Virus record (IMG/VR): IMGVR_UViG_3300032092_000245
Location: 1-24,392 of that record
Length of the DNA: 24,392 bases
Strand: one strand, 5' to 3'
DNA from: a virus
Both the position numbers and the translations under genes were made by a program. This document shows positions 3 to 20,613 of this stretch, piece after piece. Below the pieces are notes generated by a model. It was given only the letters and a program-made list of their open reading frames with translations. It searched no databases and had not been told where the DNA came from. Positions within the stretch are counted from its first letter, which is position 1; each line of letters opens with the position of its first letter.

Positions 3-707
3 TACATTAGACCAAATTTTAATTTAAAGTCTAGTGAACATTTTAGTAGTTTTTTTGATGGAACAACTATAATAGTTGGTGGTGAACACAACGATCAACT
101 GTTGGGTAGTGATACTGCAGAGAAAATCCACTCTAAGTATGGATTTGATCGTATGCACGAACCTTATAAAAATAAGTTAATGTATGAGTGGTTTATAGCC
201 AATGATATCCCAAAGAATTGTGCTGATTGGTGGTTTGACATGTTGGTGTGGAGTGCTGAGCAAGCACCTTGTGAAATTAAATCTTTTTATGAATTGGCAT
301 GGTGGCTGAACTTTAATTTTAAATGGCAAAGTATATTCTTTAGAACTCTATTGAGAGTTGGTAAAAATTATAGACCAAATATCAATCAAGAATTTGTTGA
401 TCAAAATTATTTTCAATTTTATTCTAGTGAATATTTTCAAAAGTGGAGTATGTTAAATCCCAACTTAAAAATAAAAAATAGTTGGGACACTTACAAGTTT
501 CATCCTAAAGAATTGATTTTTGATTTCACTAAGGATTATACTTACAAAACTAACAAGGTGAAACAAGGCAGTCTGGCTAATATCTTTATTTCTAAAGATA
601 CACCAGTTGGTTTATCCACCGATTACCAGTACCTTTATAAATTAGATAAATCAGAGTTGTATAATCCTGAGAATAGTTTTAAAGGAACACCTTCATGGAA
701 ATTATAA
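3..707 (+). CDS. C-terminal part of a possible asparagine synthase-like (PP-loop type) protein, 5' truncated by window edge
   Basis: An open frame runs from the first bases to the stop at 707 with no stop before, so the gene begins outside the window and about 234 codons are visible. Near its start (residues about 25-37 of the visible part) lies IIVGGEHNDQLLGSD, which resembles the segment of asparagine synthase C-terminal domains containing GEGADELFGGY. The remainder is rich in Trp, Tyr and Phe (for example CADWWFDMLVW) and does not show another motif I recognise. If the resemblance is real, the missing N-terminal part should hold the ATP-binding SGGxD loop. Phages of aquatic bacteria often carry amidotransferase and asparagine-synthase-like genes of unclear role, but the assignment here rests on one motif. 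The reading frame is certain, the function is not. Confidence 0.4.
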   Translation, partial: YIRPNFNLKSSEHFSSFFDGTTIIVGGEHNDQLLGSDTAEKIHSKYGFDRMHEPYKNKLMYEWFIANDIPKNCADWWFDMLVWSAEQAPCEIKSFYELAWWLNFNFKWQSIFFRTLLRVGKNYRPNINQEFVDQNYFQFYSSEYFQKWSMLNPNLKIKNSWDTYKFHPKELIFDFTKDYTYKTNKVKQGSLANIFISKDTPVGLSTDYQYLYKLDKSELYNPENSFKGTPSWKL

Positions 708-6841: not shown

Positions 6842-6868
6842 AAAGGGATCGTAAAGATCCCTTTTTTT
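6842..6868. terminator. Bidirectional terminator between gp32 and the reversed block
   Basis: AAAGGGATC (6842-6850) pairs perfectly with GATCCCTTT (6856-6864) around a five-base loop, with T's continuing to 6868. The symmetric A/T flanks allow it to stop transcription from both sides. It overlaps the stop codon of the minus-strand gene. The 60 bases between the convergent genes hold nothing else that I see. Confidence 0.9.
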
Positions 6869-7988
6869 ATGCTCGAGAGAATCTGCTTCCAATAAACCTA
6901 GACATGGAAGACTCTTGATTCCGAATCGGAGACTTAATTACTTGAGAAGTGTTATTGTTTGTAGTGACTGGAGCATTGACAACAGCAGTATTACCACCAC
7001 CGCCACCAGAACTTGCTGCAGCTGCATCGGCATTTTGTTTAGATGCTTTTGTTACCACAGCACCATCTACTTGCATAGAACCACCTGCTGCAACGAAGGC
7101 AGTTGCTTTAAGCCATGGAAAATCATTAATAGCTTCCATTGTCTTTTTATCAATCTTACCAAAAGCACCCATGGCACTGCCAAGTTTTTCCATGCCATCT
7201 GCAGCTTTTTGGATACCCTCGCCACGATCTCCGATCTTGATTAACTGTTCTACTGGAGAATCAGAACCGATCGTTAATAGATTACCAACTAAAGAACCAA
7301 GTCCAGCCAGTGCTTGTGCACCACCAAATGCTACCATGGCACCAGACAAAGCCAGAAGTCCACCTGCTACTTCTAATAAAGCACCACCATCTATCTGAGC
7401 AAGTCTTTCGATACTTCCTGTTACAGCATCAATAATTTTGATAATAGAATCAGAAATAGCACCGATAACACCCATGATAACATCACCAACTGATTTGATG
7501 ATTTCTGGGATCTTTTCAATAGCTGCAACAAATACAGTGCCAACCACTTCAGCAATTTTCATAAGAACTGGAGCGAATGCTTCAATGGCAGGTGCAGCTA
7601 ATCTTAATGCTGCACCTAATCCAATAGCTGCGAGAGTTAATACACCAATAACTGGAATAGCTGGAGTTAGAGCGACTAGACCAGCAGATAATTGAAACAA
7701 TCCTCTGCCAATGCCAGAAAGAATAGCACCTAGTCCTTTACCAAGACCAGTGCCAAGAGATTTTAATCCTTTACCCAATCCACCTAATAGCCCACCACCA
7801 TCTTCTGCTGCAGGCTTAGCAGCACCAGCAGAATCTCCACCACGAGTGTTTTCTTCAATCTTCTGCAATAGGGAAGTTTGGGCATCCATTAACTTAGCAT
7901 TTTCTTGTGCAGCTTCTTGTTGCTCCCCTGCAGATGCAAATGCCTCTGTTGGAGTTTTAGCTACTTCTCGTGCAGCAGGAGAAACCAT
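6867..7988 (-). CDS. Tape-measure-like virion protein, C-terminal part after an in-frame stop
   Basis: 373 codons from the first usable ATG at 7988. The open frame itself extends to 8186, where a TAA separates it from the gene at 8657 in the same frame. The product has an Ala/Gly-rich hydrophobic middle (GGGLLGGLGKGLKSLGTGLG, then long stretches such as VIGVLTLAAIGLGAALRLAA and GGLLALSGAMVAFGG) and a polar Asn/Ser-rich end. Hydrophobic Gly/Ala segments after a coiled-coil N-terminus are typical of tail tape-measure proteins. With the upstream piece the total is about 596 codons, near T4 gp29 (590), and the gene lies directly downstream of gp26/gp51, where tail assembly chaperones precede the tape measure in many phages. 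No good ribosome site precedes ATG 7988, so separate translation looks weak. Confidence 0.65.
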   Translation of the reverse strand: MVSPAAREVAKTPTEAFASAGEQQEAAQENAKLMDAQTSLLQKIEENTRGGDSAGAAKPAAEDGGGLLGGLGKGLKSLGTGLGKGLGAILSGIGRGLFQLSAGLVALTPAIPVIGVLTLAAIGLGAALRLAAPAIEAFAPVLMKIAEVVGTVFVAAIEKIPEIIKSVGDVIMGVIGAISDSIIKIIDAVTGSIERLAQIDGGALLEVAGGLLALSGAMVAFGGAQALAGLGSLVGNLLTIGSDSPVEQLIKIGDRGEGIQKAADGMEKLGSAMGAFGKIDKKTMEAINDFPWLKATAFVAAGGSMQVDGAVVTKASKQNADAAAASSGGGGGNTAVVNAPVTTNNNTSQVIKSPIRNQESSMSRFIGSRFSRA

Positions 7989-8186: not shown

Positions 8187-8657
8187 TTAAGCACCTTCAA
8201 ACTTTTTATTAAGATCACCTGTAGCACCAAGTGCTGTTTGTTCTTTAATAAACTTTTGTTTTTCTAATCGTTTATTATTAATACCAAGAACATTAGTAGA
8301 CTCAAGAAAGTTCTTTTTAATGTTTTCACCAGAGAACTTACCTGCAAAACCCTTTACGCCATCACGCACACGTTCTAATGGAGACTTAAACGTCTTCATA
8401 CTATCCATTAGTTTTTGAATATCCTCGTGTGCTTTTTTTCTGTCCTCTTCAGAATCTTCAAGAATTGTTAGCTGTTTCTTTTGAACAGTTAATGATTCTT
8501 GTTCTAGTTTTAATCTTTCATCGTCTTTAATGTTTGCTGTCTTTTCCATCAAACTTTGTATAGTTGATAGATGACCCACAGATAGTCTCTGTGCCTCAAG
8601 TAAGGATTTCATATCACTTGATGTAACATGAACTTGATAGTCTTTATTTTTTGCCAT
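8187..8657 (-). CDS. Tape-measure-like virion protein, N-terminal part ending at an in-frame TAA
   Basis: 156 codons from ATG 8657, one base after the gp51 stop, with only a weak TAAGAGA ribosome site. The product is charged and helical, probably coiled coil from residue 15 to 95 (SLLEAQRLSVGHLSTIQSLM; ERLKLEQESLTVQKKQLTIL). The TAA at 8187-8189 is followed in the same frame by 66 protein-like codons and then by the 373 codons from ATG 7988, with no further stop. One base change (for example TAA from GAA or CAA) would restore a single protein of about 596 residues. Either this is a nonsense mutation or sequence error, or the stop is read through or splits the protein deliberately. The rest of the genome uses TAA as a normal stop. 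Confidence 0.65.
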   Translation of the reverse strand: MAKNKDYQVHVTSSDMKSLLEAQRLSVGHLSTIQSLMEKTANIKDDERLKLEQESLTVQKKQLTILEDSEEDRKKAHEDIQKLMDSMKTFKSPLERVRDGVKGFAGKFSGENIKKNFLESTNVLGINNKRLEKQKFIKEQTALGATGDLNKKFEGA

Positions 8658-8865: not shown

Positions 8866-9563
8866 AGCATCTTCTTGTGTTGCTTTTGGCACACAGGGCA
8901 AGTATATTCAATTTCTTTCTTAATTCTTGGCATTGTCGCAAAGAATTTCTGGATCTTTAAAAATTGGTCAGATGTTAAGTTGTTTAAAAACTGTAACAGT
9001 TCTTCGTGTTTTTGTTCTTTTGCATAAAAGATTTCTTCACCTTGATAGATGTAGTCAACAGATAAAGCAACTACATCAAAAATCTTGTCTAGGTTATCTT
9101 CATCCAAAGACTCTAATTTTTTCATAATGTCAACTGTTGGATATTTCATCACAACACCAACATCATTGAATAAATCAATTTTCGCTACGTGACTAGGATC
9201 CTTTTCCACCTGCAACGTAGTTAAGTCAATAGAAACTTTAACTCTAGCCTTTTCGTTATCTTCACCATGATCGTTATCACATGGAAAGATTAATTCAATA
9301 ATTTCACCAACAGACTTAGCACGGATTTGAGTAAACATGTACTCTAAATCAAATGTTGCTAGTTTATTAGCATCAATGTTATCCATAACGCAGGTTTTAA
9401 TGACACTCTTAAGAGTATCAACCATAACCATTAAGTCTTCACTTTGTTGTGCGATTAAGAGTGCCTTTTCCTCTTTAACGAGAAATGGTCTAAACTTAAC
9501 ACTCACTCCACTCGAAGGTATGACCATATTATAGGTCGGTGTATTCATCATCGGCAATGCCAT
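8841..9563 (-). CDS. 26: gp26-like baseplate hub subunit or tail assembly chaperone
   Basis: 240 residues (T4 gp26: 208). Family features: the N-terminal MNTPTYNMVIPSSGVSVKFR and PFLVKEEKALLIA, TFDLEYMFTQIRAKSVGEII (70-89), and a C-terminal CPVC pair (Cys222, Cys225) like the zinc-knuckle end common in this family. gp26 takes part in hub assembly on the inside of the baseplate. Its place before gp51 and the tape-measure-like gene, plus the frameshift signal at its 3' end, suggest it acts as a tail assembly chaperone pair with gp51. The start is ATG 9563 with CAGGAG at the end of the terminase gene. It ends in Phe-Phe on the slippery T run. Confidence 0.85.
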   Translation of the reverse strand: MALPMMNTPTYNMVIPSSGVSVKFRPFLVKEEKALLIAQQSEDLMVMVDTLKSVIKTCVMDNIDANKLATFDLEYMFTQIRAKSVGEIIELIFPCDNDHGEDNEKARVKVSIDLTTLQVEKDPSHVAKIDLFNDVGVVMKYPTVDIMKKLESLDEDNLDKIFDVVALSVDYIYQGEEIFYAKEQKHEELLQFLNNLTSDQFLKIQKFFATMPRIKKEIEYTCPVCQKQHKKMLEGMQSFF

Positions 9564-9565
9564 AA

Positions 9566-9982
9566 TTATTCTCCTGTATTCATTTTCTTGATTAACTTAT
9601 TCAATTCAGCAGTGCTACCAACAAAGATAGCATTGTTATTCGTAACCTGTTTAGCCTTTTCAGCTTTAGATGGTTCATCTAATTTTTGTTTCTGTTGATG
9701 AAGATCCATCAACTGTTGGTTCACTTCAGCGAGTTGTTTCATAAGATTACCCACTACTTCAAAGGCACGTGGGTGCTCAGATTGCATCGCTACATCGAGA
9801 GACTTCTGAAGTGCTTCCTGCCCCTGCTGTAATAAAATACGAAGATTGTTACGAGTTGTATCGTAATCTGATTCAATCTTTTGACTCGCTGTAGAAATAA
9901 TCTCACCATCTTGTGTAATCACTTCTGTCTTTGGTAGTGTTTGAACATCAAACACTTCAGACAAACTATCATCTATTCTCAT
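9566..9982 (-). CDS. 16: gp16-like terminase small subunit
   Basis: 138 residues (T4 gp16: 164). The central coiled-coil region has the typical pattern SDYDTTRNNLRILLQQGQEAL, SEHPRAFEVVGNLMKQLAEV and NQQLMDLHQQKQKL (about residues 38-100), flanked by polar ends, as in T4-type small terminases, which form oligomers that recognise DNA and regulate the gp17 motor. The large subunit is not in this window. The ATG overlaps the stop of the holin-like gene (ATGA), so translation is coupled. Its location among tail genes rather than beside gp17 differs from T4 order. Confidence 0.8.
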   Translation of the reverse strand: MRIDDSLSEVFDVQTLPKTEVITQDGEIISTASQKIESDYDTTRNNLRILLQQGQEALQKSLDVAMQSEHPRAFEVVGNLMKQLAEVNQQLMDLHQQKQKLDEPSKAEKAKQVTNNNAIFVGSTAELNKLIKKMNTGE

Positions 9983-10260
9983 TCTTCATCCTTGCTATTT
10001 ATTGACGAATTTGCAACTCCAGCTAGCTTCTCTTTACCACGACTCCATACAGCGATACCTAAAACAGCACCCATTGCCATATGGAATAATCCAGCACCCT
10101 CAAGCGTTAGAGGTTTCCATTGAGTGATTGGTTGCCCAGCACTATTTTGCAGCAGGTTCCATAGAACTGGAAAAATAATAAAGTCAGTTATACAAACGAC
10201 CATGTACATCCACCCCATGGATGGACGCCATTTATTATTTAACCAACTTTCTTGTGCCAT
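9979..10260 (-). CDS. Holin-like small membrane protein
   Basis: 93 residues with two clear hydrophobic segments, about 16-36 (GWMYMVVCITDFIIFPVLW) and 54-72 (GAGLFHMAMGAVLGIAVW), and a charged C-terminal tail (SRGKEKLAG, ending SINSKDEE). The N-terminal NNKWRPSMGWMYM followed by a membrane span and then a short WxPLTLxGAGL stretch is the style of phage holins of the three-span GTA type. A holin would permeabilise the inner membrane at lysis and give the cell wall hydrolase access to peptidoglycan. The start overlaps the upstream stop (TAATG) and its stop overlaps the gp16 start. The holin call is good but not certain; another small inner-membrane protein is possible. Confidence 0.65.
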   Translation of the reverse strand: MAQESWLNNKWRPSMGWMYMVVCITDFIIFPVLWNLLQNSAGQPITQWKPLTLEGAGLFHMAMGAVLGIAVWSRGKEKLAGVANSSINSKDEE

Positions 10261-12042: not shown

Positions 12043-13140
12043 ATGGCTATTAATCCAGAAACTGGAGAAGAATACACTCCACTAAAAGAAAATCTTTATA
12101 ATAAACGTGGTGGTGCGAGTTCGATGAGTGACAAGTACTCGGTGAAGATGCACTCATATCCAGAAGATTTAATCTCAAACACTGGACAGTATGGTGGAAA
12201 CTATGCTATTTTCTACATCAACGTGCAAACTGATTCCAAATTAGGAAAATCTAAAGATGAAAACGAATTCGTCAATGAAACTACTCCAAGAGATCGTGGA
12301 GATTTAATTGCACAAAATTTATCTGGGGATAAGTTACTAGCTACAAATCTTGGACTTATTGGTGGTGGTGCTATTTTAGGTAAAGCATTAGGAGTTGGTG
12401 CTGTTTCTGGACCAGCTGCAGGTTTGGCAGCAGTTGGTGCTGGTGCAACTGCCACAGTTGCTGCAACTGCGAGTCGTGCTCAAAGAAGATTAAAAACTGC
12501 GATTGCTTTACACGTACCAAATCAACTACAGATTCGCTACGGTATGCAGTACGGTGAACAAGATACTGGCACTTTTGCCATGGGTGCAGCTGCACTAGAT
12601 CAAGGAATAGAAGTCGCTAAAGCATTGATGGAAGGTGGTAGTGCTAACAGCAAAGACGTCGGTAATCTTGCTGGTGCTATCGGTACAAATTTAGCATTAT
12701 CTAAAGGTCCATTTGCTGCAGCAAATTCTGCAGCTACAGGTCTAGCAGCAAACCCTAAAAAAGAACAAGTATTCAGTGGTGTAGATTTTAGAACATTTCA
12801 AGTGGAGTATCAGTTCTTTCCTAGAAGTGCAGCTGAAGCTGGAAATGTTCAAAGAATTATCAAAGAGTTTAAGTATCATATGCATCCAGAATTTAAAGAT
12901 GCTAATAACTTTGTTTACATCTATCCATCTGAGTTTGATATTTTCTATTATCAAAATGGTAGAGAAAACTTAAACATACATCGCCACACATCTTGTGTGT
13001 TGACAGAAATGAGTATCAACTATACACCCAACGGAGCATTCACTACATTTGATAACGGTATGCCAACGCAAATTAACGTACAAATGTCATTCCGTGAACT
13101 TGCTCTTCTCACTAAAGATAAAATTTTGGATGGTCTATAA
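12043..13140 (+). CDS. 48: gp48-like baseplate tail tube cap protein
   Basis: 365 residues (T4 gp48: 364). Recognisable parts: MHSYPEDLISNTGQYGGNYA with AIFYINVQ, a Gly/Ala-rich hydrophobic stretch at about 104-145, then VFSGVDFRTFQVEYQFFPRS, IIKEFKYHMHPEFKDANNFV, YIYPSEFDIFYY, RHTSCVLTEMSINYTPN and FDNGMPTQINVQMSFRELAL. gp48 caps the hub and, with gp54, starts tail tube polymerisation around the tape measure. It is the first gene of the baseplate operon with AAAGGA upstream and late boxes before it. The stop overlaps the gp53 start (TAATG). Confidence 0.9.
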   Translation: MAINPETGEEYTPLKENLYNKRGGASSMSDKYSVKMHSYPEDLISNTGQYGGNYAIFYINVQTDSKLGKSKDENEFVNETTPRDRGDLIAQNLSGDKLLATNLGLIGGGAILGKALGVGAVSGPAAGLAAVGAGATATVAATASRAQRRLKTAIALHVPNQLQIRYGMQYGEQDTGTFAMGAAALDQGIEVAKALMEGGSANSKDVGNLAGAIGTNLALSKGPFAAANSAATGLAANPKKEQVFSGVDFRTFQVEYQFFPRSAAEAGNVQRIIKEFKYHMHPEFKDANNFVYIYPSEFDIFYYQNGRENLNIHRHTSCVLTEMSINYTPNGAFTTFDNGMPTQINVQMSFRELALLTKDKILDGL

Positions 13141-13634
13141 TGTATTTTAAAGATTTCCCAAAGTTTCTGTATGACTTTAACTACGATGCAAATACAAATA
13201 AAACATCTGTAGTCACAGACATAACAAGAAACGTAAGGTTTCGTAAAGAACTGTTGTCATCTATAACCTATTTTGATGAGTATGATATTGTTGATGGAGA
13301 AACTCCTGAGATTATAGCAGAGAAGATTTACGGTAATGCAGAATATCACTGGATCATTATGCTTGCCAATGATAGGTATGATTACTTAAGTGACTTCCCT
13401 CTACCAGAAGCTCAATTGGTCCGACATATTGAAAAACTTTATGGTACCAACGCTAATGGTATAAAACATTATGTTGATGCACGTGGGTTTACTGTAAACT
13501 CTGATTTTCCTGGAGCACTTCCTGAAACTTTTGCTACTCATGAGAGAAACATTAATGAAAGCAAACGAAAAATCAAGATTATATCTCCGCAGCTAGTTAA
13601 TACAATTCTTAAAAACTTTAAAGATTCTCTATAA
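13140..13634 (+). CDS. 53: gp53-like baseplate wedge protein
   Basis: 164 residues (T4 gp53: 196). Typical parts are MYFKDFPKFLYDF, TRNVRFRKELL, YDIVDGETPEIIAEKIYG and the hallmark YHWIIMLANDRYDYLSDFPL (about residues 70-89), which resembles a LysM-like or sugar-binding fold in some family members. gp53 joins the wedge complexes to each other and to the hub, completing the hexagonal baseplate. Both ends overlap neighbours by TAATG, implying coupled translation. Confidence 0.9.
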   Translation: MYFKDFPKFLYDFNYDANTNKTSVVTDITRNVRFRKELLSSITYFDEYDIVDGETPEIIAEKIYGNAEYHWIIMLANDRYDYLSDFPLPEAQLVRHIEKLYGTNANGIKHYVDARGFTVNSDFPGALPETFATHERNINESKRKIKIISPQLVNTILKNFKDSL

Positions 13635-14911
13635 TGCAATCAGGCGAGCAGTTAAAATTTGCTGGTGAAGTACTTCTTGACAAAGTCAGGATAATTACTC
13701 CATCAGGTTTTTATCAGGATATTGCTGGACAGGTAATTACTGTTCAGTTATATGAAGATTTATTTTCACCATTTATTACTGGTAGTTTAATTGTAAAAGA
13801 ATCTTTAGACCTTATCAATCTATTCCCATTTATTGGTGAAGAATATCTAGAGTTAGAAATTAGAACTCCAACACTAGAGAAAAATAATATTAAAAATACA
13901 TTCTACATCTACAAGATGGGAAACAGAGAGTTGCTTGGTGATCGTTCAGTTGTTTATCAACTACATTTTATTTCAATTGAAGCTGTTGCCGATTTAAATA
14001 AAAAGATAAGCAAGTCATTCACAGGAAAAGTATCTGACATGGTTCAGAAATTTGTTACTGACAAATATGATGGTATGGAAAGTACCAAATCAGTTAATGT
14101 TGAACCTACTACAAACTCAACAAAATATACTTCTAATTATTGGAGTCCAGTCCAAAACATTATGTATTTAACTGATACTGCAATTAATGTTAATGGCACT
14201 CCAGACTTTGTTTTTTTCGAGAACAGAGATGGCTTTTACTTTATAAGTTTGGAATCATTATATTCAAATAACGTATTTCAAGAGTTCACTTACGACAAGT
14301 ATACTCGTGATGATCTTCCAGGTGGTGGAAGCGCAAGAAACGTGCAAGAAGATTATAAACGTATTTTATCAATTAGTATTCCAACTGGCTTTGATTATAT
14401 GGATCGTATTCGATCTGGTATGTTGTCATCAAAGTTAATTACATATGATGTAACAAAGAAAACATATACAACTAAAAATTATGATATGTTTAAACGATTT
14501 GAAAAACAGAAACACTTAAATAAATTTCCCATCAATTCTAACAAATCTATTTTTAGAAACAACGCTTTAATCATGAATGAATATAAAGCATTTGCGAATC
14601 ATTCAGGTTTTGGTGACGTCACTAATACAAGAATAATTCAGGAAAGAACTTCATTGATGAAGTTGGCTGAAGCCAATAAACTAGAAATTACAGTTCCAGG
14701 AAGAGCAGATTATACTGTTGGTCAAAAGATTGCAGTTGTGTTAAATAAGATAGAACCAATTTCTGACAAATCTGAAGATACCACTGATAAAATGTTTTCT
14801 GGTTATTATATTATTGCAGCGATTAATCACTATGTAGATAGAGAAAAGCACGAGTGTGTTATGGAAGTGATTAAAGATTCTTCACAAATGGATATGAGTA
14901 AAGGTAAATAA
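13634..14911 (+). CDS. 27: gp27-like baseplate hub protein
   Basis: 425 residues (T4 gp27: 391). The N-terminal pattern VRIITPSGFYQDIAGQVITV, LYEDLFSPFITGSLIVKESL, LINLFPFIGEEYLELEI and later YQLHFISIEAVADLN is the tube-like fold of gp27 hubs. The middle has NYWSPVQNIMYLTD and DFVFFENRDGFYFISLESL; the end has GYYIIAAINHYVDREKHECV. gp27 trimers form the torus that holds the gp5 spike and start the tube, and the gene lies directly before gp5 as expected for a functional pair. It overlaps both neighbours by TAATG. Confidence 0.88.
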   Translation: MQSGEQLKFAGEVLLDKVRIITPSGFYQDIAGQVITVQLYEDLFSPFITGSLIVKESLDLINLFPFIGEEYLELEIRTPTLEKNNIKNTFYIYKMGNRELLGDRSVVYQLHFISIEAVADLNKKISKSFTGKVSDMVQKFVTDKYDGMESTKSVNVEPTTNSTKYTSNYWSPVQNIMYLTDTAINVNGTPDFVFFENRDGFYFISLESLYSNNVFQEFTYDKYTRDDLPGGGSARNVQEDYKRILSISIPTGFDYMDRIRSGMLSSKLITYDVTKKTYTTKNYDMFKRFEKQKHLNKFPINSNKSIFRNNALIMNEYKAFANHSGFGDVTNTRIIQERTSLMKLAEANKLEITVPGRADYTVGQKIAVVLNKIEPISDKSEDTTDKMFSGYYIIAAINHYVDREKHECVMEVIKDSSQMDMSKGK

Positions 14912-17900
14912 TGAATTTTTACTATGGTGTGGTCGAGAATAGACAAGATCCATTAAGACTTGGTCGTTGCCAAGTTCGAGTGGTTGGTTTACACACTCAT
15001 GATAAGTCACAGTTACCGACTGCAGATTTACCATGGGCTACTCCAGTTCAACCAGTAACTTCTGCTGCGATGAACGGTATTGGATATTCTCCAATCGGTC
15101 CAGTTGAAGGCACTTCTGTTATTATTATGTTTGCTGATGGTGAACAACAACAACCAATTATTCTTGGTACAGTTGGTGGTATACCATCAACACCGATTCC
15201 ACCTGATTCTGATGATAGTGGTCCAATTGGTGCATCTCCGAAGATCGATAATTTAAAATTAAGAACTATTGCTGGACCAGTAAATGGCAGACAATTAACC
15301 TTCTATGATCCAGAGACAGGTTCAACCAGTTTAACATCAGCATTATCAGCAAACATGAAAGTGTTTGGCTTTGGTATTCCAGAAGGTGCGTTTATTGTTT
15401 CTATTGATAATGGAACACAAATCACTATTAGCACTGCAGTTACAGAATACGCAGAAAATATTATATCGTTTGACGAAGCACCAACCAATCTTGCTGCAGT
15501 AAATGCAAGTAAAATACAAAATATATTGACAAGTTCAGATGGAACTCCAGTGACTTCTGGAGATGGTACAGTTGTTACGACAGGCAGTGATGAACCAGAT
15601 AAAGTAAAACCAACAGCAACTAATACTGCAATACCAACAATTCCTCCTTCAAAATCATCTCCTAATTCAGCAAAATCTGAAGCAGGTATTAAGGCATTGA
15701 TTGCAGCTTGTGATAAAGTTGGATTAACCACACGTGAGCAAAAGTGTGCATTGCTAGGTATTGCTGGTGGTGAATCTCGTTGGATTCCTCAGTTAGAATC
15801 TTTTAATTATTCTGCTAATCGTATGAAGCAGATCTATTCATTTGCCACTCCAGAAGATATTGCAACATATTCTGATGCGACTAAAAAGGGAGTGACCCGT
15901 GAACAGTTTTTCTCTTGGGCATATGGTCCAACAAAACGTGGTAAAGGATTTCTTGGGAATACTACTGATGCAGACGGAGGAAAATACTTTGGACGTGGTT
16001 TCATTCAGCTAACTGGTAAAGCAAACTACCAGCGTTATCAAAAGTTGGCCAATGAGATGGGGTTAAGTTTAGATATTGTTAACAACCCAAATTCGTTAGA
16101 TGACGACATTAACGTATCTGCTTTGGTTGCTGCGCTGTATATTAAAGATCGTGTTAAAGGTGTTGCTCCATCTGCACATCCAGGATTTTTTCTTGCAGCA
16201 AAGAAAGCTGTTGGCGTAAACTCACCAGATATTTCAGCGTTAAAACAAAACTATTACGAGTATTTTTACGGTAAAGCTGGTACTGGTGGTGAAGAAAAGG
16301 ATGCTGGTGCTCCAGTCGCAACACCACCAGCTGATGGAGATTCTACACCAAGACCATCAGAAGAATCTGTTCGTTCAGGTGCAGACAATAATGGATTTAG
16401 AGATCCAAATAGTAAGTATCCGTTAAAGGGATATATTGGCGAACCAGACACAAATCGTTTAGCACGTGGCATTATTGAAGGTACAGTTGTTAAGAAAAAA
16501 GACGCTGTGCGAGTTCGTGCTGTTCCTCGTGCATTAGATCTTGGTCCATGGGATCAACCTGAAGCACCATATGGAGCAAAGTATCCATTTAATAAAGTGT
16601 TTGAAACTGAGTCTGGACATATTCAAGAGTTTGATGATACTCCAGGACAAGAACGTATTCATACATATCATCGCTCTGGTACATTCCACGAGATTGATAC
16701 CAATGGAACACAAGTAAACTATATCGTTGGTGATAACTTTGTTCTTATGGAAAAGAACGGATGCATCAGCGTAAGAGGTGAGTGTAATATTACCGTTGAT
16801 GGTAATACGAACATTTATGCAAGAACTGATGCGAACATTCAAGTGGATCAAAATGCAACTATTAAAGTTGGTAACAATTTAGACATTGGTGTTGGCACTG
16901 ACGTTACCATGGCAATCGGTGGAGACTTTAAAGTTAAAGTCGCTGGTGACTATTCTATAGATGCTGCAACTATCAGTACTAAATCACAAGGTGGTTTAAC
17001 TACACAAGCAGTCGGTGCTATGAACATCAAAGGTTCTACAATCAATCAAGAATCTGAAGGTGCTATGAACATCAAAGGTTCTACAATCAATCAAGAAGCT
17101 GCAGGCGAGGCAAATTATCTATCTGGTGGTATAACCAATATGGATTATTCACAAGGGCAGTTCGGTAATGGTGCTGCTGGTGCAGATGGTGCACAAGATG
17201 TTGCTGACGTACCATTAACTCCTCCAGCAGCAACTGTTGGTTTAAGTCCAGTTGTTCCTTTTGCAATTCCACCAGAACGTGAGTTTGAAGAAAAGACAAC
17301 TGCTGAAACACCAGATGATTTTGAAACACCTGAAGGTCGTGCTGCATCTGCACAACAAGCTAGAACAGAGGGTGTGGTTGGCGCACTGCCACCTGTTGCT
17401 ACTGAAGAAGCACCTGCTCCAAGTGGTGGATCTAAAACTGAAATTCCTGTCAGTTGTGATATTATTTACGCAAGAAAAGAGTTCTCCAACGATTTTAGAA
17501 TGTCTAAGAACTTTACCCTTGGTATGTTAATTGATGGTGGTGTTGGTGGTCAGCATCGTCTTGTAGACCAGATGCTAAAAGAATCTAAGTCTTCACCAGA
17601 ACGTATTTACACAGTTCAAGAAATTGTATGTAACCTTGCTCAGACAGCACAAAACATTCTTGAACCGATGTTAGAAATTCTTCCAGGTGGTATCGGTGGA
17701 TATAAAACTCAGTGGAAGATTAACTCTGGTTATCGCTTGAAAGGTGTTGTTAAAAATGAATCACCAACATCAGATCACTGTAAAGGACATGCTATTGATA
17801 TTGGTATTATGTTGCCAAACAAGTCAACATCTACATATGATATTATTCAAAAGATGGAAAAAAGTATTCCTTATGATCAACTAATTTTAGAGTATCGTTA

Positions 17901-18054
17901 TCCAGGATCTGTTTGGATTCACGTTTCTTATAAAGCAAAGGGATCACGTAAAATGGCATTTACTATGGTTAATGATTCAACGTATAAACGTAATACATCA
18001 GGTGTTCCATCTGGATTTGTATTAGTCGAAAACATTCCACCTAAGAGCGCATAA
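14911..18054 (+). CDS. 5: Giant gp5-like hub and spike protein with GH19-type lysozyme and C-terminal M15 peptidase domains
   Basis: 1047 residues (T4 gp5: 575). In order: an OB-fold domain 1-92 (YYGVVENRQDPLRLGRCQVR, GTSVIIMFADGEQQQPIILG); a Ser/Thr/Pro-rich region to about 255; a glycoside hydrolase 19 (chitinase/lysozyme)-like domain at about 256-455 with AGGES (probable catalytic Glu288) and YFGRGFIQLTGKANY (359-373); a linker; the spike beta-helix at about 565-740 with short alternating strands (NITVDGNTNIYARTDANIQV) and two 15-residue repeats; a Pro/Glu-rich linker to about 845; and an M15-type peptidase domain with SGYR (939-942), SDHCKGHAIDIG (ligands His956, Asp963), DQLILEY (Glu994) and WIHVSY (His1004). 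It thus has two different peptidoglycan-cleaving modules on one spike, whereas T4 has one. The role is local cell wall opening at infection. Confidence 0.88.
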   Translation: MNFYYGVVENRQDPLRLGRCQVRVVGLHTHDKSQLPTADLPWATPVQPVTSAAMNGIGYSPIGPVEGTSVIIMFADGEQQQPIILGTVGGIPSTPIPPDSDDSGPIGASPKIDNLKLRTIAGPVNGRQLTFYDPETGSTSLTSALSANMKVFGFGIPEGAFIVSIDNGTQITISTAVTEYAENIISFDEAPTNLAAVNASKIQNILTSSDGTPVTSGDGTVVTTGSDEPDKVKPTATNTAIPTIPPSKSSPNSAKSEAGIKALIAACDKVGLTTREQKCALLGIAGGESRWIPQLESFNYSANRMKQIYSFATPEDIATYSDATKKGVTREQFFSWAYGPTKRGKGFLGNTTDADGGKYFGRGFIQLTGKANYQRYQKLANEMGLSLDIVNNPNSLDDDINVSALVAALYIKDRVKGVAPSAHPGFFLAAKKAVGVNSPDISALKQNYYEYFYGKAGTGGEEKDAGAPVATPPADGDSTPRPSEESVRSGADNNGFRDPNSKYPLKGYIGEPDTNRLARGIIEGTVVKKKDAVRVRAVPRALDLGPWDQPEAPYGAKYPFNKVFETESGHIQEFDDTPGQERIHTYHRSGTFHEIDTNGTQVNYIVGDNFVLMEKNGCISVRGECNITVDGNTNIYARTDANIQVDQNATIKVGNNLDIGVGTDVTMAIGGDFKVKVAGDYSIDAATISTKSQGGLTTQAVGAMNIKGSTINQESEGAMNIKGSTINQEAAGEANYLSGGITNMDYSQGQFGNGAAGADGAQDVADVPLTPPAATVGLSPVVPFAIPPEREFEEKTTAETPDDFETPEGRAASAQQARTEGVVGALPPVATEEAPAPSGGSKTEIPVSCDIIYARKEFSNDFRMSKNFTLGMLIDGGVGGQHRLVDQMLKESKSSPERIYTVQEIVCNLAQTAQNILEPMLEILPGGIGGYKTQWKINSGYRLKGVVKNESPTSDHCKGHAIDIGIMLPNKSTSTYDIIQKMEKSIPYDQLILEYRYPGSVWIHVSYKAKGSRKMAFTMVNDSTYKRNTSGVPSGFVLVENIPPKSA
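17014..17103 (+). repeat. Tandem 45-bp repeat in the gp5 spike beta-helix
   Basis: Two units, 17014-17058 and 17059-17103, are identical over their first 39 bases and differ only in the last two codons. They encode GAMNIKGSTINQESE and GAMNIKGSTINQEAA. The near-perfect DNA identity, including silent positions, points to a recent duplication that lengthens the spike by about one helical turn per unit. Confidence 0.9.
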
Positions 18055-18056
18055 TT

Positions 18057-18359
18057 ATGCCAGCAGTAAGTAGAATCGGAGATATGAGTACAGGGCACGG
18101 ATGTTTTCCTCCGACTGCCTTAACATCTACACCAGTCTCTAAAACCTTTTTTAATGGTAAACTAGCTTCTGTTGTTGATAGCGGATGCCTTCACGCACCT
18201 CATACCTGCGGTAGAGTAACACATGCTGGTGCTACTAGATCTCCTTCTGCTGGAGCTAGTAAAACCTATATTGAGGGTAAATTGGCTGCAAGAATTGGCG
18301 ATAGTATTGCCTGTGGCGATGCAATTGCTCAAGGCTCTCCCAACTCTTTTATAGAATAA
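18057..18359 (+). CDS. PAAR-motif spike tip protein (gp5.4-like)
   Basis: 100 residues, the size of PAAR proteins. The N-terminal MPAVSRIGDMSTGHGCFPPT, the middle with Cys44, His46, His49 and Cys51 (GCLHAPHTCG), VTHAG, the central KTYIEGKLAARIGDSIACGD and the final GSPNSFIE match the PAAR fold, a small cone that sits on the gp5/VgrG beta-helix and binds a metal ion through His and Cys residues. In T4 gp5.4 is the equivalent. It lies immediately after gp5, whose tip it should sharpen for membrane piercing. Confidence 0.9.
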   Translation: MPAVSRIGDMSTGHGCFPPTALTSTPVSKTFFNGKLASVVDSGCLHAPHTCGRVTHAGATRSPSAGASKTYIEGKLAARIGDSIACGDAIAQGSPNSFIE

Positions 18360-18372: not shown

Positions 18373-18765
18373 ATGGCAAGAAATACAAGACTTTTCTCAG
18401 ATATAGACCTAAATTTCACTAAACATCCAGTGACTAGGGATATAACTCGCAGATATGACGAGAATGCTATTAAAGCATCAATTAAAAACCTTATATTGAC
18501 CAGAAATTTTGAGAGACCATTTCATAGTGAAATTGGTTCTCCTATTCGATCATTAATGTTTGAACTTCCTGGACCAATGTTTGATGTTATGCTTCAACGT
18601 GCTATTATTGATCTTGTCAATAACTTTGAACCAAGAGTTGAAATTATAGACGTTAGAGTAAATGATGCGTCAGATCTAAATGCAGTTTATGTTACATTAG
18701 AATTTAAAATAGTCAATACCGAGAGACCCTTCACTCTCGATCTAGCACTAGAGAGAACACGATAA
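18373..18765 (+). CDS. 25: gp25-like baseplate wedge protein
   Basis: 130 residues (T4 gp25: 132). Family features are FSDIDLNFTKHPVTRDITRR, the variant DENAIKASIKNLILTRNFER and the conserved FHSEIGSPIRSLMFELPGP (about residues 51-69), ending in a beta-rich part (VYVTLEFKI). gp25 is the lysozyme-fold wedge core and sheath initiator that is also universal in type VI secretion (TssE). It is followed without a gap by gp6. No ribosome site is visible before ATG 18373, only the late box. Confidence 0.92.
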   Translation: MARNTRLFSDIDLNFTKHPVTRDITRRYDENAIKASIKNLILTRNFERPFHSEIGSPIRSLMFELPGPMFDVMLQRAIIDLVNNFEPRVEIIDVRVNDASDLNAVYVTLEFKIVNTERPFTLDLALERTR

Positions 18766-20613
18766 ATGTCAATCAATAATAAAAGAATAACAGTTTCAGA
18801 TTTAGACTTTGATACAATCAAAGCTAACTTAAAGACATTCCTACAGGGACAATCAGAGTTTTCTGATTATGACTTTGAAGGATCTGGTCTTTCAGTTTTA
18901 CTAGATGTGCTTGCTTATAATACTCACTACAATGCTCTTTATACTAACTTAGCTGTAAATGAAGGTTTCTTGGACTCTGCCAGTAAACGTGCCTCTGTAG
19001 TTTCTTTAGCAAAAATGCTTGGATATGTCCCACGTTCTGCTAAGTGTTCATTTGCTTTAGTAAATGCCACTATTACTTTACCAACAGCTACTCCTGGAAC
19101 AGTAACCTTACCTGCCAACCAACCATTTAATACTTCTATTGATGGTAATTCTTATACATTCTATAATAGATCTGCAGTCACTGTTGCTAGAAATACTGCA
19201 GGTAATTATACTTTTCCAAATCTACAGATTGTAGAAGGAACTCCACTTCAATTCAAATATACTGTTGCTGCTGGTGTTCGTTATGTTATCCCTAATGCAA
19301 ATATGGACATCGATACATTAACAGTCCGTGTTCAGGAAACTGCCAACTCAGATTTATTCCAAGTTTATACTCGTGCTGAATCATTAACGCAAGCAACATC
19401 AACTACTAAAGTTTATTTTATTAAAGAAATCGATGATGGTTTATATGAAATTAGTTTTGGAAATGGTGTTATTGGTACACAGTTAGCAAACGGTAATGTT
19501 ATCACTTTTGATTATTTCGTTTCAAATTTAGAAGAACCAAATACAGCCAGCAATTTTGTTTACGGTGGTGTTAATTTATTGGGTAGTACTTTATCAGTCA
19601 CAACTGTCGCTCGAGCATCAGGTGGTGCTGCCTCAGAAGGTATCGACTCTATTAAATTTAATGCGCCAAGAATGTATGCTGCACAGAATCGTGCCGTGAC
19701 ACCAGATGATTACAAATCGATTATTTTAAGTGAGTTTCCACAAGCTGCATCAGTAGCAGTTTGGGGTGGTGAAGATAATGACCCACCTATTTACGGTAAA
19801 ACTTTTATCTGTGTTAAACCTAAAGACGCAAGTAAATTAACAAATTTACAAAAAGAATTTGTGACTAATAACATTTTAGATCAAAAAAATATCGTCTCTA
19901 TAACTCCAGAAATTATTGATCCAGAATATTTTAATATTAAGGTAACTTGTTTTGTATATTACAATCCAAGAGAAACTACAAAGACACCAACACAAATTGA
20001 AACTATTGTTAAGAACGCTATCTTAAATTATAATGCAACAGAGCTAGAAAGATTTGATGGTGTTCTGAGGTTCTCTAAACTATCAAGAATTATTGACTCT
20101 TCCGACCCAGCAATTACTAATAATACATCTCGTATTATGGTGCGTCGTCAATTTTCTCCTGTATTTAATATTAGTTCAGAATACAAACTAAATCTGATTA
20201 ATCCAATTTCTCAAGATGGTGGTAAACAAGGTGATGTGTTTGCAAGCACTGGATTTTTTATTCCAAATAGCACACGTGTGCATTATCTTGATGATGATTC
20301 TGTTGGTAATGTACGTTTATATTATAATGGTCCAGAAGGTACTATTGCTGATAGGGTTATTGTAGACCCATCAATTGGTACTATTGAATATGAGGCAGGA
20401 CGTGTGGTTGTTCGTAACCTAACTATTACTGCTCTTGATGACGTCATTTTTGAGATGCAAGTTAAACCAGAATCATATGACGTTGTTTCTGCATTAAATC
20501 AAATCGTTCAGATTGATCCAACATTACTAAGAGTTGAAGCAATTGCTGATCAAACAGCTAATGGCGATCTACGTGCAGGTTACAACTACGACTTCCAATC
20601 AATTAGATCATAA
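18766..20613 (+). CDS. 6: gp6-like baseplate wedge protein
   Basis: 615 residues (T4 gp6: 660). Typical sequence: FEGSGLSVLLDVLAYNTHYN followed by ALYTNLAVNEGFLDSA and MLGYVPRSAK (about 45-95), ISFGNGVIGTQLANGNVITF near 225, and RAVTPDDYKSIILSEFPQAA, VAVWGGEDNDPPIYGKTFIC near 305-345. gp6 dimers form the inner ring that links neighbouring wedges and triggers baseplate rearrangement during contraction (TssF-like in type VI systems). The start directly abuts the gp25 stop and its own stop overlaps the next start (TAATG). Confidence 0.92.
   Translation: MSINNKRITVSDLDFDTIKANLKTFLQGQSEFSDYDFEGSGLSVLLDVLAYNTHYNALYTNLAVNEGFLDSASKRASVVSLAKMLGYVPRSAKCSFALVNATITLPTATPGTVTLPANQPFNTSIDGNSYTFYNRSAVTVARNTAGNYTFPNLQIVEGTPLQFKYTVAAGVRYVIPNANMDIDTLTVRVQETANSDLFQVYTRAESLTQATSTTKVYFIKEIDDGLYEISFGNGVIGTQLANGNVITFDYFVSNLEEPNTASNFVYGGVNLLGSTLSVTTVARASGGAASEGIDSIKFNAPRMYAAQNRAVTPDDYKSIILSEFPQAASVAVWGGEDNDPPIYGKTFICVKPKDASKLTNLQKEFVTNNILDQKNIVSITPEIIDPEYFNIKVTCFVYYNPRETTKTPTQIETIVKNAILNYNATELERFDGVLRFSKLSRIIDSSDPAITNNTSRIMVRRQFSPVFNISSEYKLNLINPISQDGGKQGDVFASTGFFIPNSTRVHYLDDDSVGNVRLYYNGPEGTIADRVIVDPSIGTIEYEAGRVVVRNLTITALDDVIFEMQVKPESYDVVSALNQIVQIDPTLLRVEAIADQTANGDLRAGYNYDFQSIRS

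Follow-up and report, generated by a model that had tools for sequence, protein, structure and literature searches.

The gene at 14911-18054 of the window, i.e. the whole 24,392-nucleotide stretch analysed here (IMG/VR virus record IMGVR_UViG_3300032092_000245), is a T4-type gp5 within a T4 baseplate gene order. Its chain comprises, in order, an OB domain, a small beta module, a GH19 domain, a beta-helix, a tether and an M15-type zinc peptidase. The reading that we prefer, with a probability of roughly 0.7, is a cell-puncturing spike that carries two peptidoglycan hydrolases on each chain of the presumed trimer, the M15 domain being tethered at the tip. Virion lysins with two enzymes are already known, e.g. 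CwlP, HydH5 and the diffocin hub-hydrolase (PMC5380687, PMC6116005, PMC11329794), and according to reviews Gram-positive phages are the source of those with two lytic domains, endopeptidases in virions being likewise almost restricted to such phages (PMC5380687, PMC6116005). A widespread T4-like phage family, whose closest kin infect Gram-negative hosts, appears to be an exception to this rule, and its M15 module offers a hypothesis, open to experiment, for the origin of tip-borne enzymes in contractile injection machines.

Spike gene and neighbourhood

The features of the spike gene and of the surrounding genes are listed below.

14911-18054, + strand: gp5-type central spike / tail lysozyme gene; ATG start, single ORF, 1047 aa
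14911-15192, + strand: OB domain, residues 1-94; Gp5_OB 9.3e-25 and alignment with T4 gp5
15226-15483, + strand: small beta module between OB and GH19, residues ~106-191; strands in structure model, weak 8eci match
15676-16275, + strand: GH19 domain of the muramidase type, residues 256-455, with E288 (15772-15774) and E296 (15796-15798) as putative catalytic residues
16546-17166, + strand: pre-helix segment and trimeric beta-helix, residues ~546-752; phrog_430 2.4e-92 (for the whole gp5 chain) and alignment with T4 gp5
17014-17105, + strand: 45-bp tandem duplication within the beta-helix, adding 15 residues
17167-17442, + strand: tether, residues ~753-844; rich in Ala, Pro, Glu, Gly and Thr, with a conserved stretch at ~768-812
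17443-17982, + strand: M15-type zinc peptidase domain, residues 845-1024; profile, model and fold match
17776-17778, 17797-17799 and 17920-17922, + strand: M15 zinc ligands H956, D963 and H1004
17890-17892, + strand: putative catalytic E994 of the M15 domain
18057-18359, + strand: separate PAAR tip protein, 100 aa; PAAR_motif 2e-6, phrog_281 3.8e-23, aligned with T4 gp5.4
13634-14911, + strand: tail/hub protein directly upstream of gp5 (T4 gp27 position); phrog_350 2.7e-81
18373-18765, + strand: baseplate wedge gp25; GPW_gp25 3.1e-10
12043-13140: tail tube cap, T4-type baseplate cluster
13140-13634: gp53, T4-type baseplate cluster
18766-20613: gp6, T4-type baseplate cluster
1123-1638, + strand: separate Hydrolase_2 cell-wall hydrolase; PF07486 1.8e-23, phrog_938 8.6e-25
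9979-10260, - strand: putative holin; phrog_3427 2.7e-7, PF11351 1e-5

Membership in the spike family is supported first by the gp5 N-terminus, which scores 88 bits with PF06714 (Gp5_OB) against a cut-off of 25. The Pfam model Gp5_trimer_C alone is sub-threshold on the window gp5 (24.6 vs 30.9); phrog_430, the profile matched by the chain as a whole, carries the annotation "baseplate hub subunit and tail lysozyme", and by direct alignment residues 546-690 correspond to the pre-helix segment and helix of T4 gp5. The order gp53, gp27 position, gp5, PAAR, gp25 and gp6 matches the T4-type cluster, in which gene 53 lies before gene 5, and gene 5.4 (PAAR) and gene 6 come after it. T4 gp5 (tail lysozyme, 1K28/1PDL) shares with the window protein the OB domain, a glycan-cutting domain in the same place, the trimeric beta-helix and the gene order. 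However, the glycan-cutting domain of the T4 protein is a T4-type (GH24) lysozyme, and its chain stops at the tip of the helix, whereas the window protein has a GH19 domain and continues past the helix into a 92-residue tether and the M15 domain.

Several smaller features of this region may be recorded. The beta module at residues ~106-191 weakly matches protein 8ECI of the Arthrobacter phage Bridgette (76 residues at Z 8.9). The duplication within the beta-helix is near-perfect and is lacking in the closest relatives (L002, L039 and L052), and the length of the beta-helix differs between relatives. Three other ORFs of the window, at 6867-7988 (-), 8187-8657 (-) and 102-707 (+) (373, 156 and 201 aa, respectively), had no Pfam or PHROG match.

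The GH19 and M15 domains

Residues 256-455 are a domain of the GH19 muramidase type, with muramidase activity predicted from profiles and from the structure model. Scanned alone, these residues score 26.7 bits with PF00182, above the cut-off of 25.5; the score is 26.1 bits with in-frame neighbours in the genome search, and 22.1 bits, under the cut-off, across the whole gp5 chain. The endolysin profile phrog_181 matches the region at 1.3e-26 in the full-chain scan, and a profile built from 29 homologues reaches the phage GH19 endolysins 8P8E, 4OK7 and 9MS6 in the PDB at E values of 2e-8 to 2e-6. In the model of gp5 residues 96-465 (mean pLDDT 85.7) the GH19 part is mostly above 90, and it superposes on 7R6S, 8P8E, 9EOI, 8XCL and 4OK7 with Z scores of 15.4-16.2. 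E288 and E296 are invariant in 79/79 sequences and align with the equivalent glutamate pair of 4OK7 and 8P8E; a proven muramidase of this type, PaGH19Lys, has E51/E60 as its catalytic residues (PMC12329726). The Foldseek match of first rank is the T6SS effector TseP (8XCL, PMC11893102), which resembles gp5 in having a GH19-like lysozyme domain within a two-enzyme peptidoglycan hydrolase, but which differs in that the partner domain is an amidase and there is no spike.

Residues 845-1024 are filed as M15-type, by fold and zinc ligands, rather than as a certified member of PF08291, because the score with that family is under the cut-off (17.7 bits vs 23.2, E 0.004). A PF08291 hit is seen in 27 of 32 homologues (best 8.9e-5), and the endolysin profile phrog_894 matches the domain at 2.6e-14. 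Although PF08291 is seen in 3/8 of the large relatives, below cut-off, the relatives' own family alignment finds M15 in 8/8, so that the misses reflect a problem of sensitivity and not absence of the domain. The AlphaFold2 model of the domain has a pLDDT of 93.6, and its top Foldseek match is the zinc DD-peptidase 1LBU (probability 0.99, E 4.6e-3), on which VIA-align places it at Z 11.6 over 131 residues with an rmsd of 3.0. The connection to 1LBU comes only through fold comparison, since phmmer and profile searches of PDB sequences with the M15 domain gave no genuine match, the hits being for the most part ribosomal proteins with E values of 0.1-1.

The domain contains the motif SDHCKGHAID...WIHVSY, which is of the zinc-ligand type SxHxxGxAxD plus WxH, and the motifs are far from chance. 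The ligands H956, D963 and H1004, together with W1002 and E994, show no variation among the homologues that extend over these positions. Well-known M15 enzymes such as VanX and the S. albus enzyme have an acidic catalytic residue three positions before the last histidine; in the window gp5 this position, three before H1004, is V1001 and is not acidic. E994 is likely the catalytic residue that replaces the missing acidic residue at 1001, because in the model its strand pairs with the H1004 strand in a hairpin (model strands 146-153 and 156-162).

Conservation is deep for both domains. One scan of IMG/VR yielded at least 425 gp5 relatives, 80 of which were kept and 78 of these 80 extracted as one ORF. 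All 78 extracted relatives have the GH19 domain; 77 extend as far as the first two zinc ligands, and in 76 the zinc site is complete, the shorter ones being truncated by contig ends; GH19 E288/E296 and M15 H956/D963/H1004/E994 are invariant in all of the 77-79 sequences that cover them. Among unsaturated pairs, M15 has a median dN/dS of 0.064 and GH19 one of 0.069; these values (~0.07) indicate purifying selection on both domains. Together, the conservation among relatives and the low dN/dS argue that the fusion is neither an assembly artefact nor a decaying remnant.

A first-pass annotation of this DNA had proposed that a single gp5 spike bears two modules that cleave the wall, and this is supported by the profile matches, the folds, the invariance of the catalytic residues and the depth of conservation. 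It had recognised a GH19-like motif with E288 and a C-terminal M15-type zinc peptidase with intact ligands, both of which hold, but it had overlooked the second glutamate E296 as well as E994; the domain limits that it drew, 256-455 and 845-1047, were accurate. The profile searches that it suggested gave a divided answer for M15, where PF08291 stayed below its cut-off and phrog_894 matched, while GH19 came out over its cut-off. Neither a non-enzymatic fold nor unconserved zinc ligands, named there as grounds against an M15 enzyme, were found, the best fold match being 1LBU and the ligands invariant.

Probable position and proposed action of the M15 domain

The proposed action of the spike is as follows. 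The PAAR protein would cap the helix, and three M15 domains would hang from the helix end on tethers of ~90 residues. On sheath contraction the M15 domains would meet the wall first and, around the hole, cut bonds of the stem peptides or cross-links. Cleavage of MurNAc-GlcNAc bonds would follow, by the GH19 domains at the helix base, which is the T4 lysozyme site, and would allow the tube to pass.

The tip protein itself has not been replaced, since a PAAR gene is kept within 700 bases downstream of gp5 in 71/71 relatives with enough downstream sequence. The first-pass annotation had held that, with PAAR expected to bind at the helix end, the M15 domain has either to loop back or to be removed by cleavage; this is unsupported, given the retention of PAAR in these relatives and the fusion of the module to PAAR elsewhere. 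Neither event is needed: in evolved VgrG proteins, C-terminal enzymes sit past a helix of this same type, and a tether at the tip suffices. The T6SS protein VgrG2b has a metallopeptidase beyond its helix, and relatives have the same enzyme on PAAR (PMC6899460). The likeness to the window spike is that a zinc metallopeptidase lies past the spike helix and that, depending on the bacterium, either VgrG or PAAR is the carrier of this enzyme family. However, the VgrG2b enzyme is of the HEXXH/DUF4157 type, unrelated to M15, and serves as a weapon with an immunity gene and not as an entry tool.

Among phages, a homologous M15 module stands at the end of gp5 in BUCT-ZZ01, Cr30 and the Pseudomonas phage pf16, and in the pf16 gp5 no middle enzyme was found. 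A homologous module stands at the end of PAAR in the Pseudomonas phages Paride, Lauda and Milchi and in the Vibrio phages 1.244.A and 207E48.1; these fusions have the same ligands and glutamate but carry them on PAAR and not on gp5. A linker joins PAAR to an M15-type peptidase at L085:3476-4498, L086:4343-5332, L159:4437-5441, L160:3850-4836 and L161:2374-3381. The residues of the SxHxxGxAxD type, the E and the WxH are kept in all of the distant gp5 and PAAR fusions. The occurrence of one module on the ends of either protein points to the needle tip as the simplest common location. We lean, with some reserve, towards a more general view, in which Gram-negative T4-like phages would have an exchangeable slot for a tip enzyme, with M15 tethered to the gp5 helix or to the PAAR cap and striking the wall before the base lysozyme; this would be a phage counterpart, and perhaps a forerunner, of the evolved VgrG/PAAR effectors of T6SS. 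A survey of jumbo phages states that phage PAAR proteins stand alone and unfused (PMC7824862), which the PAAR-M15 proteins, including those of the jumbo phage Paride and of its PA5oct-like relatives, contradict. No paper on a PAAR-M15 fusion in phages was found in a literature search on PA5oct/PAAR.

The tether comprises 92 residues, 83% of which are Ala, Pro, Glu, Thr, Gly, Ser, Val or Asp, and it carries segments that are conserved in homologues. The conserved stretch at 17212-17346 reads PLTPP...PFAIPPERxFE...ETPDDFETPEGR, and it could be a docking site. This would suit a rival reading, in which the M15 domain folds back along the helix and sits beside GH19 at the baseplate. The two-lobed hydrolase of diffocin is a parallel, its transglycosylase-endopeptidase pair being stored at the baseplate until contraction (PMC11329794), and a tether of 90 residues could span the helix. 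We consider this arrangement unlikely, since in other phages the homologous module is fused to PAAR and is therefore fixed at the tip there.

A doubt of another kind is whether the M15 fold is still an enzyme, or has become a wall- or metal-binding domain of the tip, leaving GH19 alone to cut. The hedgehog signalling domain has the same fold and zinc ligands as the M15 domain and yet is no wall enzyme; hedgehog domains form the second structural group for the M15 model in VIA-align (Z ~6), and the missing acidic residue before H1004 and the sub-threshold Pfam score would also fit such a loss of activity. Against it, the active peptidase 1LBU is the best match by far, the set of five invariant residues recurs in the distant gp5 and PAAR fusions, and the E994 strand is paired with that of H1004, so that a purely binding role appears quite improbable.

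Clipping of the M15 domain from gp5 as a free enzyme, or the chance fusion of a lysis enzyme to gp5, appears improbable. In its favour are the length and Pro/Glu-rich composition of the tether, the cleavage that T4 gp5 undergoes as it matures, and the free M15 relative in BUCT-ZZ01. Against it, a separate Hydrolase_2 gene is present in this virus and in 8/8 large relatives, the only M15 match of the large relatives lies inside gp5, and the fusion is kept in all extracted homologues along with the conserved tether segments. The separate Hydrolase_2 gene led us to reject a free lysis role as the main reading of the M15 domain; lysis probably falls to the enzyme that this gene encodes (1123-1638). 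With lysis so provided for, the earlier suggestion that on entry this phage cleaves glycan as well as peptide bonds is well supported, as a predicted activity of the tip-tethered spike.

Relatives, host and comparable proteins

Synechococcus phage BUCT-ZZ01 has a gp5 (UTS51949.1) that shares the OB domain, GH19 (PF00182 1.7e-8), beta-helix, tether and M15 domain and has 31% identity across residues 203-1019; it is annotated only as "baseplate hub subunit". The gp5 of Caulobacter phage Cr30 shares the OB domain, a glycosidase-type domain, the helix and M15, but its middle domain is Phage_lysozyme2 (PF18013 5.5e-29) and not GH19. In Methylophilales phage Melnitz-3 gp5 is split into two ORFs (L084:2962-6005), with M15 on the helix half and a VanY-like domain (PF02557 1.1e-4, sub-threshold) on the OB half; this spike possibly has two peptidases and no glycosidase. 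The Melnitz paper makes no mention of a peptidase or of M15.

By gp6 and gp32 the nearest cultured relatives are Methylophilales phages (Melnitz), followed by Pelagibacter and cyanobacterial phages, all of which infect diderm bacteria, and the host is probably Gram-negative. A cyanophage origin was considered, BUCT-ZZ01 being the best single gp5 match among isolates, and was rejected: psbA was not found in 8 large relatives of 91-174 kb, and gp6 and gp32 are nearest to Methylophilales and Pelagibacter phages.

Two enzymes on one tail protein occur also outside this group. The phi29 protein gp13 (3CSQ) has a glycan-cutting and a peptide-cutting domain in a single tail protein, but phi29 infects Bacillus and the enzymes are on the tail knob, not at the two ends of a spike helix. 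The diffocin hub-hydrolase CD1368 (PMC11329794) shares the same pair of activities in one tail protein; it differs in having a Gram-positive target and in carrying the enzymes on a gp27-type hub rather than at the two ends of a spike helix. The two-enzyme gp5 architecture is already present in databases (UTS51949.1, A0A6J7WXM8), and no remark upon it was found in the literature searched, most subscription journals lying outside the search. The second of these, A0A6J7WXM8, has 1025 aa and a gp5 OB fold, and part of it matches the M15 model with 69% identity.

Two minor observations concern other genes in relatives. The free 182-residue M15 relative of BUCT-ZZ01 (ON615601.1 76730-77020) is a possible source of the gp5 module. 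In the window gp5 and PAAR are nearly contiguous (18054-18057), whereas 33/71 relatives have a gap of 300-700 bases between the two genes. The window was found to lack the gap gene, at the gp5/PAAR junction or elsewhere, though the gp5 of L039, which has this gene, is ~91% identical. The five gaps that were read each hold a gene of ~150-180 aa (e.g. L039 ~9090-9550), weakly similar to the gene in the same position of Vibrio phage 1.244.A.
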